Shown: one piece after another, positions 37,527-44,002 of the stretch
Numbering within the stretch: position 1 is the stretch's first letter
Layout: every line of letters starts with the position of its first letter
DNA from: Erysipelatoclostridium sp. An173
GTDB lineage: Bacteria > Bacillota_I > Bacilli_A > Erysipelotrichales > Coprobacillaceae
DNA: 64,000 bases
Direction of reading: 5' to 3'
Assembly (NCBI RefSeq): GCF_002160495.1
Contig: NZ_NFKR01000004.1
Coordinates: 62,001-126,000 of the forward strand
Translations under genes and position numbers: made by a program
The notes under the pieces: generated by a model
Seen by the model: only the letters and a program-made list of their open reading frames with translations
Told to the model about the DNA's origin: nothing
Databases searched by the model: none

Positions 37527-37570
37527 ATTTTCAATAAAAACCCCGCACTAGAATACGGTATTTAGTCAAT
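37527..37570. repeat. Detached copy of the tRNA-Arg terminator region (copy 1)
   Basis: 44 bp, about 90 percent identical by eye to 37733-37777, which lies directly 3' of tRNA-Arg. It keeps the hairpin sequence (CCGCACTAG ... TACGG) but has no tRNA next to it; it is fused to a gene fragment at 37571. This looks like the scar of a duplication and deletion, or of an integration event. Confidence 0.75.
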
Positions 37571-37630
37571 ATTGAAGATAAGTATCACAAATTGTATTAT
37601 GTAAATAACAAATACATTGAAAGATCCTAG
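37571..37630 (+). pseudogene. C-terminal fragment of a paralogue of the small orphan protein
   Basis: Twenty codons ending in TAG read IEDKYHKLYYVNNKYIERS, aligned without gaps to IEDQNSQQYYINNKYIDFE of the protein ending at 36188. No start or upstream part remains; the fragment begins exactly where the terminator repeat ends. A 7-bp terminator stem (37624-37630 with 37641-37647) follows. Confidence 0.65.
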
Positions 37631-37732: not shown

Positions 37733-37777
37733 ATTTTCAATAAAAAAAACCGCACTAGAATGCGGTATTTAGTCAAT
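37733..37777. repeat. tRNA-Arg terminator region (copy 2, in place)
   Basis: 45 bp directly downstream (minus strand) of tRNA-Arg(CCG) and the partner of the repeat at 37527-37570. It contains the functional terminator. Confidence 0.75.
37742..37766 (-). terminator. Terminator of tRNA-Arg(CCG)
   Basis: On the minus strand, a CCGCA/TGCGG stem with a TTCTAG loop is followed by eight T residues. Confidence 0.9.
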
Positions 37778-37778
37778 C

Positions 37779-37853
37779 TGGCATCCTCAGTAGGAATCGA
37801 ACCTACAACTTAACCTCCGGAGGGTTACGTGATATCCATTTCACTATGAGGAC
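37779..37853 (-). tRNA. tRNA-Arg, anticodon CCG
   Basis: 75 nt including encoded CCA. The cloverleaf folds: acceptor GTCCTCA with TGAGGAT (G1-U72), D-arm, anticodon stem TAACC/GGTTA with loop CTCCGGA (anticodon CCG) and T-arm with GGTTCGATTCC. It reads codon CGG, which is rare in this AT-rich DNA. The 3' flank is duplicated nearby. Confidence 0.95.
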
Positions 37854-38061
37854 ATTACTAGACAAGTATAACACTAATATTGATAAAAATAAATAAATAT
37901 ATAAAAAATTATCTTAAATATTTAAGGATAAATTATATAATATTAATAGTTATAATTCATTAAATAAAAAAATTTTTAAAAGAATGAATGGATTTTTACT
38001 TACCAATCGTATTATTTATGAAGGCACAAGTTAATGTCTAAATAATCGAGGAGGGATATCA

Positions 38062-38439
38062 ATGAAAAAAATAGTAGTTAGTATTTTAACAGTTGTGATA
38101 ATGTTAACAGTTGGAGTAAAAATTCTAAAGGCAGATTCACCAGATACGTATACGCCTGAAAACGAAACTAAATATAGTTATGTTACTAGTAAAGAAGGTG
38201 TGAATAATTATATTAATAGTGGTTGTTTTCATGTTGATAGTGATAATAATGGGATTTGTGATGGCTGTGGTATATGTCAAAATAATGTAAGTACATCAAA
38301 TAATGGCAATAATTGTGATATTTGTGGTAAGAGCAATTGTAATCATAAACATAATTCTTGTCATTACAGTGATTCAAATAGTGATGGTATTTGTGATAAT
38401 CGGCATAGTCATCACCGACAACATAATAGACATCATTAA
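38062..38439 (+). CDS. Secreted Cys/His-rich protein of an ECF sigma operon
   Basis: 125 residues with a signal peptide (about 1-24, VVSILTVVIMLTVGVKILKA). The mature part contains 9 Cys and 10 His. Two copies of a C-[FH]-[HY]-x-D-S-x-x-x-G-I-C-D unit (residues 55-67 and 100-112) resemble EF-hand or thrombospondin-3-like acidic loops. CxxC pairs occur between (CDGCGIC, CDICGKSNC), and the tail is His-rich (HSHHRQHNRHH). GAGGAGGG precedes the ATG. It begins a three-gene unit with an ECF sigma factor and RsgI-like anti-sigma. Binding of a metal ion outside the cell is a reasonable inference; no named family recognised. Confidence 0.75.
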   Translation: MKKIVVSILTVVIMLTVGVKILKADSPDTYTPENETKYSYVTSKEGVNNYINSGCFHVDSDNNGICDGCGICQNNVSTSNNGNNCDICGKSNCNHKHNSCHYSDSNSDGICDNRHSHHRQHNRHH

Positions 38440-38456
38440 TAAAAAGGATAGTTTTA

Positions 38457-38939
38457 ATGCGAAGCGAACAAGAGGTAAATAGAGTAATTGAGTTATATGG
38501 CGATACTGTTCGACGATTATGTATGATTTATTTGAAAAATTATGCGGATACCGAAGATATATTTCAAAATGTTTTTTTGAAATATGCTACAAGTTCAATA
38601 AAGTTTGAAAACGATGAACATGAAAAAGCGTGGTTTATTCGAGTTACAATTAATAAATGTAAAGATTTACTCAAAAGTTTTTTTAGAAATCGCACAGTAT
38701 CATTGGATGATATAGTTGAAAAGCCTGAAGCGATACCATCAGAATATAGAGAAGTTTTAGAAGCTGTTCTTTCGCTTCCTCAAAAGTATCGCAATGTTGT
38801 TTATTTACATTATTATGAAGGCTATAGTGCACCACAGATTAGTCATATTTTAGGTAAAAATGTAAATACTGTTTATACGCTCCTAACTCGTTCTAAAAAA
38901 ATGCTTCGAGAAAAATTAGGAGGTGATGAGTATGAATGA
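38457..38939 (+). CDS. ECF-type RNA polymerase sigma factor (sigma-70 family)
   Basis: 160 residues. Region 2 (VIELYGDTVRRLCMIYLKNYADTEDIFQNVFLKY, then KAWFIRVTINKCKDLLKS) and region 4 (LSLPQKYRNVVYLHYYEGYSAPQISHILGKNVNTVYTLLTRSKKMLREKL) are complete; there is no region 3, as expected of ECF sigmas. It starts 17 nt after the Cys/His-rich gene. Its TGA stop lies 8 nt inside the anti-sigma gene, so the sigma/anti-sigma ratio is coupled by translation. It probably directs transcription of this operon and other envelope genes. Confidence 0.93.
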   Translation: MRSEQEVNRVIELYGDTVRRLCMIYLKNYADTEDIFQNVFLKYATSSIKFENDEHEKAWFIRVTINKCKDLLKSFFRNRTVSLDDIVEKPEAIPSEYREVLEAVLSLPQKYRNVVYLHYYEGYSAPQISHILGKNVNTVYTLLTRSKKMLREKLGGDEYE

Positions 38940-39672
38940 AAAAATTAAAAAGGCTTTTGATCAGATTCAAGCTGAAGATGAACTAAAAAATAAGACTAAG
39001 GATTTTATTTTAAATAAAACTAATGGTTACAATCAAAAACCTAAAAAGACTAGGTATTGGCGTTTAGTCCCAATTGCGATATGTGTGTTATTTGCTTTTT
39101 GGGGTGGTTATTGGCTTTATTTTACACCAACAGTAGAGATTAGTATGGATGTCAATCCATCAATTGAATTGAGTGTTAATCGCTTTGATAGAGTAATATC
39201 AGTAACAGGTTATAATGATGATGGTCAAGAATTAATAGAGTCATTGGATATAAAACATATGAATTATAATGATGCTATTGATAAGATATTAAATAGTCAG
39301 GATATTATAGAGCTTTTATCTAATAACGAAGTCATGACTATTTGTGTAATTGGCAAAGACGGTAAACAGTCAACTAGAATTTTTTCTAATATAGAATCAT
39401 CTACAGCAAAAACAGAAAATACCTATTGTTATCATGCTCAAATGGAAGAAGTTGAAGAGGCTCATGATGTAGGTCTTTCATATGGTAAATATAAGGCATA
39501 TTTAAAAATTAAAAGTTTAGATCCTGATATAACACTTGAACAGGTACAAGAGATGACGATGAAAGAAATACATGATCTAATTCATTCTTTATCAAATAAT
39601 AATCAAAATGACACTGATGCTGACCAGCATGGACATCAAGGTAGTCATCATGGTCATCATGGACATAAATAG
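38932..39672 (+). CDS. RsgI-like anti-sigma factor with His-rich tail
   Basis: 246 residues. The cytoplasmic N-terminus of about 40 residues (MNEKIKKAFDQIQAEDELKNKT) should bind the sigma factor. One membrane helix follows (about 46-63). The extracellular part (VEISMDVNPSIELSVNRFDRVISV, DDGQELIESLDIKHMNY) matches the RsgI middle domain of anti-sigma-I factors. The C-terminus ends HGHQGSHHGHHGHK with seven His. The ATG at 38932 has AGGAGG 8 nt upstream, inside the sigma gene. It probably senses an extracellular cue, possibly a divalent metal, and holds the sigma inactive; the cue is inference. Confidence 0.85.
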   Translation: MNEKIKKAFDQIQAEDELKNKTKDFILNKTNGYNQKPKKTRYWRLVPIAICVLFAFWGGYWLYFTPTVEISMDVNPSIELSVNRFDRVISVTGYNDDGQELIESLDIKHMNYNDAIDKILNSQDIIELLSNNEVMTICVIGKDGKQSTRIFSNIESSTAKTENTYCYHAQMEEVEEAHDVGLSYGKYKAYLKIKSLDPDITLEQVQEMTMKEIHDLIHSLSNNNQNDTDADQHGHQGSHHGHHGHK

Positions 39673-39684
39673 AAAACTAACAAG

Positions 39685-39716
39685 TTGCGATATGTAATTC
39701 ATATCGCAATTTGTTT
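39685..39716. terminator. Bidirectional terminator after the ECF operon
   Basis: Perfect 10-bp stem (39685-39694 with 39700-39709), with T-rich flank on the plus strand and A-rich flank on the other side. Confidence 0.85.
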
Positions 39717-41401: not shown

Positions 41402-44002
41402 ATGAAAGCTTATTACAACAAAAGTAAAACAGAGGTAAGAAAACAAGTTAATGGATCCCTAAAACCGTTAACAGAACAGCAGGTTAAAGCTAATCAAGAA
41501 AAGTATGGTTTAAATGAGCTTGTTGAAGCTAAAAAGAAAAGTCTGCTGATGGTATTTTTAGAGCAATATAAAGATTTCTTAGTTATAATCTTGATTATTG
41601 CAGCGATAATTTCAGGATTTTTAGGAGATTTTGAAAGTGCAATCGTAATTTTAATTGTTATTACAATTAATGCTATTTTAGGAACTGTTCAAACAGTTAA
41701 AGCAGAACAATCTTTAAATAGTTTAAAAGAATTATCGTCACCGACTGCTAAAGTCTTAAGAGATGGTAAGATTGTTGAAATTCCTAGCAAAGAAGTAACT
41801 ATTGGTGATGAAGTTCATCTTGAAGCTGGTGATTATATTCCTGCTGATGGAAGAATTTTAGAAAACGCTAGTATGAAAGTTGATGAAAGTGCATTAACTG
41901 GTGAAAGTGTCGCTGTTGAAAAAGATACTGATGCTATTGAAGGCGAAGTTCCACTTGGAGATCGTACTAATATGGTTTATTCAGGAAGCTTTGTTACTTA
42001 TGGACGTGGAACATTTTTAGTAACTGCAATTGGTATGGAAACTGAAGTTGGTAAAATTGCTCAGTTATTAAAATCTACTTCAGAAAAGAAGACACCTTTA
42101 CAAGTTAACTTAGATAATTTTGGAAAAAAATTATCAATTATCATTATTATTTTCTGTGCTATTTTATTTGGTTTAAATATTCTTCAAGGTGGTAATGTTG
42201 GCGATGCCTTCATGTTTGCAGTTGCATTAGCTGTTGCTGCAATTCCAGAAGCATTAAGCTCAATCGTTACAATTGTATTGTCATTTGGAACTCAAAAAAT
42301 GGCTCGTGAAGGAGCAATTATTCGTAAATTACAAGCTGTTGAAGGTCTTGGAAGTGTATCAATTATTTGTTCTGATAAAACAGGAACATTAACACAAAAC
42401 AAAATGACTGTTGAAGATTATTATGTTGAAGGACAAAGAATTCCAGCTGATCAAATTGATCCAAATATTCCTTTCCATAAAGATTTAATGCGAATGAGTG
42501 TTTTATGTAATGACTCTTCAAATGTAGATGGTAAAGAAATTGGTGACCCTACTGAAACAGCACTTATTAATTTAAGTAAAAAATTAGGAGTACCAGCAAG
42601 TAGAGTTCGTGGTGTTTACCCACGTTTAAGCGAATTACCATTTGATAGTGATCGTAAAATGATGTCAACTTTCCATTTATTAAAAGATGGCTATACAATG
42701 ATTACTAAAGGGGCTGTTGATGCCTTGATGGGTCGTATTAAATATATTCGTAAAAATAATCAGGTAGTTGAAATTACTGATCAAGATAGAGAAGATATTT
42801 TAGCAATGAACATGGAATTTTCTAAAAATGGTCTTCGTGTTCTTGCTGTTACTTATCGTAAATTTGACCAAGAAAAAGTTCTTGAATATGAAGATGAAAA
42901 TGAATTAATTTTCTTAGGATTAATCTCTATGATGGATCCACCTCGTCAAGAAAGTGCTGAAGCCGTAAGAAAAAGTAAAATGGCAGGAATTACGCCAATC
43001 ATGATTACTGGTGACCATAAAATTACAGCTGCTGCAATTGCAAAAAGAATTGGTATTTTAACAGATATTTCTCAAGCCGTTGAAGGTAGTGCAATTGATA
43101 AGTTAAGTGATGAACAATTACGTGAATTTGTTGAAGATAAACGTGTTTATGCTCGTGTTTCTCCTGAACATAAGATTCGAATTGTTAAGGCATGGCAAGA
43201 TAAAGGTAATATCGTAGCCATGACTGGTGATGGTGTAAATGATGCTCCAGCATTAAAACAAGCTGATATTGGTGTTGCTATGGGTATTACTGGTAGTGAA
43301 GTATCTAAAGATGCTGCAGCAATGGTATTAACTGATGATAACTTTGCTACAATTATCAAAGCAGTTGAAAATGGTCGTAATATTTACGCTCATATTAAAG
43401 ATGCTATTCAATTCTTATTATCTGGTAACTTTGGAGCTATTTTAGTAGTTTTATATGCATCTGTATTGGCATTGCCGGTACCATTTGCTCCAGTTCATTT
43501 GTTATTTATTAATTTATTAACTGATAGTTTACCAGCAATTGCTTTAGGGTTAGAACCTCATGATAGTTCAGTAATGAATGAAAAACCTCGTCCAATGAAT
43601 GAATCAATTTTAACTCGTACTTTCTTAACAAGTATTGGATTAGAAGGTTTAGTAATTTCTATTATGACTATGATTGCTTTCATGATTGGTTATCAAGAAA
43701 ATGCATTACTTGCAAGTACAATGGCATTTGGAACTTTATGTTTATCAAGATTAGTACATGGTTATAACTGTAAATCTAAAGCACCAGTGTTATTTAAACG
43801 TGGGTTCTTTAATAATAAGTATTTACAAGGTGCATTTTTAATCGGATTTGTTTTAATTACTTGTGTCTTAATGGTACCATTCTTAGATTCAATGTTTAAA
43901 GTTCAAACTCTTACAATCCAACAATTAATGATTGTTTATGGTTTAGCGTTAGCTAACTTACCAATTATTCAAGTAATTAAATGGATTAGAAATAGAAAAT
44001 AA
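41402..44002 (+). CDS. P-type cation ATPase (Ca2+/Mn2+ exporter type)
   Basis: 866-residue P2A ATPase. Phosphorylation site Asp325 in ICSDKTGTLTQNKMT, actuator ALTGES, hinge MTGDGVNDAPALKQADIG, and ten membrane helices. M4 holds VAAIPEALSSIVTIVL (Pro282), the form found in Listeria LMCA1-type calcium pumps, and the C-terminal cation-ATPase domain is complete. Control by a manganese riboswitch, as for streptococcal and lactococcal homologues, suggests that it exports Mn2+ (and perhaps Ca2+) to prevent overload. GGAGAA precedes the ATG. A terminator follows. Confidence 0.93.
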   Translation: MKAYYNKSKTEVRKQVNGSLKPLTEQQVKANQEKYGLNELVEAKKKSLLMVFLEQYKDFLVIILIIAAIISGFLGDFESAIVILIVITINAILGTVQTVKAEQSLNSLKELSSPTAKVLRDGKIVEIPSKEVTIGDEVHLEAGDYIPADGRILENASMKVDESALTGESVAVEKDTDAIEGEVPLGDRTNMVYSGSFVTYGRGTFLVTAIGMETEVGKIAQLLKSTSEKKTPLQVNLDNFGKKLSIIIIIFCAILFGLNILQGGNVGDAFMFAVALAVAAIPEALSSIVTIVLSFGTQKMAREGAIIRKLQAVEGLGSVSIICSDKTGTLTQNKMTVEDYYVEGQRIPADQIDPNIPFHKDLMRMSVLCNDSSNVDGKEIGDPTETALINLSKKLGVPASRVRGVYPRLSELPFDSDRKMMSTFHLLKDGYTMITKGAVDALMGRIKYIRKNNQVVEITDQDREDILAMNMEFSKNGLRVLAVTYRKFDQEKVLEYEDENELIFLGLISMMDPPRQESAEAVRKSKMAGITPIMITGDHKITAAAIAKRIGILTDISQAVEGSAIDKLSDEQLREFVEDKRVYARVSPEHKIRIVKAWQDKGNIVAMTGDGVNDAPALKQADIGVAMGITGSEVSKDAAAMVLTDDNFATIIKAVENGRNIYAHIKDAIQFLLSGNFGAILVVLYASVLALPVPFAPVHLLFINLLTDSLPAIALGLEPHDSSVMNEKPRPMNESILTRTFLTSIGLEGLVISIMTMIAFMIGYQENALLASTMAFGTLCLSRLVHGYNCKSKAPVLFKRGFFNNKYLQGAFLIGFVLITCVLMVPFLDSMFKVQTLTIQQLMIVYGLALANLPIIQVIKWIRNRK

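Follow-up and report, generated by a model that had tools for sequence, protein, structure and literature searches.

Conserved association of a calcium-loop-like secreted protein, an ECF sigma factor and an RsgI-like anti-sigma factor in a putative autoregulated surface-signalling module

The analysed window, i.e. the whole stretch of 64,000 nucleotides from Erysipelatoclostridium sp. An173, contains three consecutive open reading frames on the forward strand (38062-39672), the second and third of which overlap by 8 nt (38932-38939). The features of this locus are as follows:

37985..38014, forward strand: predicted ECF-type promoter of the operon, TGAATGGATT-N12-TCGTATTA, recognised by recurrence of the motif upstream of the secreted-protein gene
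38019..38022, forward strand: conserved TGAA just 3' of the -10 element, its T kept in 79 of 80 aligned promoters
38048..38055, forward strand: ribosome-binding site GAGGAGGG, from the sequence
38062..38439, forward strand: small, predicted secreted protein of 125 aa with 9 Cys, 10 His, a signal-like N-terminus, two loops and a His-rich C-terminus
38236..38262, forward strand: calcium-loop-like motif 1, D-S-D-N-N-G-I-C-D
38371..38397, forward strand: calcium-loop-like motif 2, D-S-N-S-D-G-I-C-D
38404..38436, forward strand: His-rich C-terminus of the secreted protein, HSHHRQHNRHH
38457..38939, forward strand: ECF sigma factor of 160 aa (Sigma70_r2, 1.9e-8; Sigma70_r4_2, 3.1e-14)
38932..39672, forward strand: RsgI-like anti-sigma factor of 246 aa with a TM helix at about residues 41-64 (RsgI_M, PF23750, E=1.3e-28)
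39154..39159, forward strand: Asn75-Pro76, predicted self-cleavage site of the anti-sigma factor, NP being kept in 70 of 74 homologues
39427..39429, forward strand: Cys166, near-invariant extracellular Cys (68/74 homologues)
39463-39465, forward strand: His178, near-invariant extracellular His (67/74 homologues)
39628..39669, forward strand: His-rich C-terminal tail of the anti-sigma factor, last 14 residues HGHQGSHHGHHGHK, 7 His
39685..39709, forward strand: probable terminator 3' of the anti-sigma gene, in which a T-rich run comes after a perfect inverted repeat of 10 bp

An earlier note on this DNA had described the three frames, their order and 8-nt overlap, the Cys/His composition, two D-x-[DN]-x-[DN]-G-I-C-D loops and a run of seven His within 14 residues, and all of this proved exact to the residue. 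Its reading of the locus as an ECF/RsgI-type operon with a dedicated secreted partner is likewise borne out (see below). The operon is isolated, with a tRNA gene lying upstream on the opposite strand. Beside this tRNA gene, a terminator-like sequence (CCGCACTAGAATNCGGTATTTAGTCAAT) is present in two copies (37540-37580 and 37743-37782), which may be what is left of a further tRNA copy since lost.

Finding the three genes together elsewhere, as the earlier note had suggested, succeeded strongly. The analysis covered 104 loci, of which 23 belong to Erysipelotrichales (the order of the window) and about 80 to Clostridia and their relatives; the order secreted protein - ECF sigma - RsgI-like anti-sigma was kept in nearly all. 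A scan of 84,980 species genomes with the anti-sigma factor gave 80 loci, the best of at least 568 confirmed relatives; their record names include Lachnospiraceae, Oscillospiraceae, Anaerostipes, Blautia, Sellimonas, Frisingicoccus, Merdibacter and Thomasclavelia. In 63 of 148 genomes of relatives an RsgI-like match was detected, and the strongest matches carried the full trio in unchanged order. A DNA pattern for the loop motif occurred in 18 of these 148 genomes, represented by 15 trio genomes, two in which the secreted-protein gene had no sigma or anti-sigma gene within the roughly 2 kb examined (L207 in G067 and L214 in G048), and one antisense chance match. The secreted protein and the anti-sigma tail of a Thomasclavelia locus (L066) were identical to those of a genome from the window's own genus (G004), so that the window itself probably belongs to Thomasclavelia. 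About 100 other loci share the gene order, the loop motif and the promoter, which is more than chance would give. The earlier note knew of no characterised system of this kind, and the papers within reach of our search, which took in little of the subscription literature, do not describe one.

Clustering of neighbours across the loci revealed no conserved flanking gene, and thus no fourth member and no metal transporter or other metal gene as a conserved neighbour. The two largest neighbour clusters were antisense frames of the operon genes themselves, and the others were generic families found in few loci. The P-type ATPase gene at 41402 was considered as part of the module and placed outside it because it recurs in only 4 of 80 loci.

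The sigma factor consists of regions 2 and 4 only, both above Pfam cut-offs, and in NCBIfam it is matched best by families of the ECF type; the partner of the anti-sigma factor is therefore not SigI. A candidate promoter motif for this sigma factor, which the earlier note had proposed to seek upstream of 38062, was indeed present at 37985-38014. The same TGAATGGATT-N12-TCGTATTA arrangement precedes the secreted-protein gene in 83 of 93 distinct loci, with identical spacing in 80 of the 93, as would be characteristic of an autoregulated ECF-type promoter, here a predicted one. Within the host genome of 2.93 Mb, the exact motif occurs once, at the operon (reversed-pattern control, zero), and with up to one mismatch it was matched in 26 of 30 trio genomes, mostly in a single copy (reversed-pattern controls, 0). 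Sites with three mismatches were not in excess in the host genome (47 vs 71 in controls). As the consensus promoter is present once in the host genome and usually once per trio genome, the main predicted output of the sigma factor is its own operon; in the simplest reading of these sequences, the secreted protein would be what it puts out. This estimate of regulon size depends on consensus matches, so weaker promoters would escape it.

Several further candidate promoters were rejected. The single one-mismatch site in the host genome sits within an ftsY-like coding frame, and second matches in other genomes fell within a large pyruvate carboxylase-like frame in one case and at the end of a LysR-type gene in another. 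Separately, in locus L168 (about 1457-1530) a one-mismatch copy is located about 45 bases 5' of an efflux-type membrane-fusion-like gene. The TGAA element, with consensus GTGAAG, follows the -10 element by about 5 bases in nearly all promoters (37985-38022 in the window; upstream regions of L001-L137), which is unusual for an ECF promoter; it is perhaps an initial-transcript or operator element.

As for the anti-sigma factor, RsgI_M was matched in all 74 homologues. An AF2 model reached a mean pLDDT of 89.7, and it had strong structural relatives only in the six solved RsgI entries, at Z 12.7-16.6 against 5.4 for the next, unrelated structure, with the fold alignment starting at residue 66 or 76. 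Solved RsgI chains in the post-cleavage state start at a Pro aligned with Pro76. RsgI_N (PF12791) had no match in the whole host genome, while the control matched in B. subtilis. Since RsgI_N is absent and the partner is an ECF factor, the protein is, as far as sequence tells, RsgI-like rather than RsgI proper. The earlier description of it as RsgI-like thus holds for the extracellular domain (RsgI_M, fold and NP site) and fails for the RsgI_N domain and the SigI partner. Cys166 and His178 have no counterparts at the corresponding positions in the solved RsgIs compared, and are a possible thiol or metal site. Seven His within 14 residues, as in the tail, occur in 2 of the 55 stop-to-stop frames of at least 150 codons within the window.

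In four of the 74 homologues (L015, L017, L018 and L026, from four genera and two families) the NP site has been lost, and the anti-sigma tails of these are also His-poor. The host genome contains two more RsgI-like genes (G000, contig 34, 24756-27460), lying close together and coding for longer proteins of another type; similar pairs were found in the relatives G024, G032, G036, G040 and G041.

The secreted protein matched no Pfam family at E<=1. Within the host genome, the loop-motif DNA pattern is present solely in its gene. Among 85 secreted homologues, 83 have a signal-like N-terminus, and the loop, with consensus N-[YF]-V-D-x-[DN]-x-[DN]-G-[IV]-C-D, occurs mostly one to six times per protein (205 motifs in total, with Cys in 202; three proteins lack the motif). 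The loops are followed by a Gly-rich tail with Arg or His, basic on average. A structure prediction for one homologue was mostly of low confidence (pLDDT 59.7), and a search of solved structures with the secreted protein returned an OmpA-family chain (E=6e-4). In three homologues (L102, L105 and L113) an apparent BspA-like (LRR_5-like) insert lies within or before the loops, the LRR_5 match in L105 being weak.

Within the secreted family, the D-x-[DN]-x-[DN]-G-x-C-D loop represents the universal trait and the most constant part, whereas Cys/His richness, on which the earlier note had built, is no family constant: many clostridial members carry Gly/Arg tails. Weak matches to calcium-binding repeats were obtained, namely to Excalibur (best E 3.6e-4, in 3 of 34 members), to TSP3_bac (E 0.0015; 18.7 bits against a cut-off of 25), and to EF-hand and Dockerin models, all below Pfam cut-offs (gathering scores). 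The loops are thus calcium-loop-like by sequence and nothing beyond.

Finally, the His content of the two extracellular tails was compared. Over 85 loci, the His fraction of the anti-sigma tail correlated with that of the secreted C-terminus, taken as the final 25 residues (Spearman 0.73, falling to 0.71 as a partial correlation on GC). Phylogenetic independent contrasts, computed on a tree from the sigma factor and the anti-sigma core, gave r=0.68 (sign-flip p<5e-5; 56 contrasts agreeing, 18 disagreeing). Outside the tails, His gave contrasts of 0.34 both for the anti-sigma core and for the remainder of the secreted protein. The link persisted when GC, Asn, and His of the core and of sigma were entered as covariates (t=6.6), was present in Clostridia and Erysipelotrichales separately, and stood at 0.52-0.63 at other tail lengths. 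The hypothesis came from the first loci read, which are themselves inside the test set; the later clostridial loci, serving as an independent check, gave rho 0.58 (n=67, p 3.5e-7). At a threshold of at least three His, both tails qualified in 40 loci, only the secreted tail in 1, only the anti-sigma tail in 22 and neither in 22. The dependence is thus one-sided, a His-bearing secreted tail being found with no His-bearing anti-sigma partner in 1 of 41 cases. Gene conversion was rejected as the source of matching tails, as the longest shared DNA measures 7.8 nt within a locus vs 7.6 between matched loci. That the tails are functionless compositional drift of disordered ends has little probability, for although they are variable and of low complexity, the contrasts correlate for His and more weakly for Asn (0.48), with values near zero both for His of the sigma factor (r=0.01) and for the residues G, R, K, Q, S, D and E.

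This covariation hints, indirectly, that the two extracellular tails share a ligand, probably a metal. The divalent-metal ligand proposed by the earlier note is partly supported, in that the His richness of both extracellular parts is linked after control for phylogeny, GC and His elsewhere, and weakened by the inconstancy of the Cys/His richness; support for calcium is as good as for Zn, Ni or Cu. Because 22 of 85 loci have fewer than three His in both tails, a His-held transition metal is unlikely as the universal ligand. Calcium at the loops and a transition metal at the His tails are mutually compatible.

The best explanation of these observations, to which we give about an even chance of being correct in full, is a stand-alone surface-signalling module that regulates itself, has a single secreted effector and probably senses or buffers a divalent cation. 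The three genes are conserved together as a unit, preceded by a single ECF-type promoter motif. The anti-sigma factor would span the membrane, cut itself at Asn75-Pro76 like RsgI proteins, and hold the sigma factor, presumably by its N-terminus. A change at its outer part would separate the two halves, leading to intramembrane proteolysis (RseP) and degradation by ClpXP; the steps from self-cleavage onwards are modelled on RsgI biology, described in part in PMC12203970. The freed sigma factor would mainly turn on its own operon, so that the main product would be the small secreted protein. With less certainty, a divalent cation present at the cell surface may be the signal. The secreted protein would fold around its calcium-loop-like motifs, and, as drawn solely from covariation and composition, the His-rich tails of both proteins may have a ligand in common or be joined to one another by a metal; the secreted protein could thereby buffer the ion or feed back on its own sensor. 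A more specific variant, which we put forward tentatively and think rather unlikely in this exact form, is that the two co-evolving tails bind one metal between the proteins, so that the secreted effector docks on the anti-sigma factor and gates release of the self-cleaved RsgI domain. To our knowledge, no such metal-gated autocrine feedback switch has been described.

Other readings place the signal differently. In a calcium circuit, the repeats would bind calcium, the secreted protein would act as a calcium-dependent co-sensor or buffer, and the His tails would be secondary. The constancy of the loop and its resemblance to known calcium-binding repeats favour this, as does the reported CaBP-SigV loop of Caulobacter (PMC13171946) as a parallel. 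However, it leaves the His-specific covariation unexplained, and with the loops under every family cut-off we regard it as possible though less likely.

Alternatively, the anti-sigma tail could probe the integrity of the cell wall, and the secreted protein could act at the wall in repair or as a matrix factor. The disordered tail of B. subtilis RsgI has been proposed to probe the cell wall; the anti-sigma factor shares its fold (8t9n), its own tail is of low confidence in the AF2 model and probably disordered, and Gly-rich tails that are basic in the secreted protein would suit such a role. The shortness of the tails, the His link between the two proteins and the lack of a wall enzyme in the module make this unlikely.

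It is improbable that the sensor responds to a glycan or host ligand, with an adhesive or matrix protein made upon surface contact: although clostridial RsgI anti-sigmas sense polysaccharides (PMC12203970) and three secreted homologues seem to bear a BspA-like insert, this insert is rare and Pfam recognises no carbohydrate-binding domain in the anti-sigma factor.

The trio was met again in Lachnospiraceae, Oscillospiraceae and Erysipelotrichales, and many of these carriers are, by record names, gut bacteria. Many gut Firmicutes thus share a three-gene switch in which an ECF sigma factor is combined with a small secreted calcium-loop-like protein and with an anti-sigma factor at the surface that has a predicted self-cleavage site. 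If a dedicated sigma factor mainly makes one small secreted cation-binding protein, this would offer a simple model for how Gram-positive commensals sense ions outside the cell. The module would also take self-cleaving RsgI domains, known with SigI and polysaccharides, to ECF factors and perhaps to metals, and the tail covariation predicts a shared ligand or contact that is directly testable.

Among known systems, CaBP-SigV of Caulobacter vibrioides, compared by description, is alike in that an ECF sigma gene adjoins the gene for a small Sec-exported protein with calcium-loop motifs, the two reportedly regulating each other; it differs in its proteobacterial host, EF-hands as described and other gene arrangement, and its abstract mentions no RsgI-like anti-sigma factor (PMC13171946). 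The calcium loops of Excalibur (PF05901), bacterial TSP3 (PF18884) and EF-hand (PF00036) have the D-x-D-x-D-G core in common with the trio loops, which differ by Cys at the eighth position and match below Pfam cut-offs. In CnrYXH of Cupriavidus metallidurans, an ECF sigma factor, an anti-sigma factor and an extracytoplasmic metal-binding partner are encoded in one operon that controls metal efflux. The likeness is one of outline of working only, and its metal-efflux target is absent at the trio. The solved RsgIs, from Clostridium thermocellum as well as B. subtilis (8hdj, 8heq, 8hep, 8her, 8u9o and 8t9n), share RsgI_M, the fold, the Asn-Pro site and the membrane topology. Compared with these, the trio anti-sigma factor lacks RsgI_N and a recognised carbohydrate-binding domain, is paired with an ECF factor instead of SigI, and bears a short His/Gly-rich tail together with the near-invariant Cys166 and His178.
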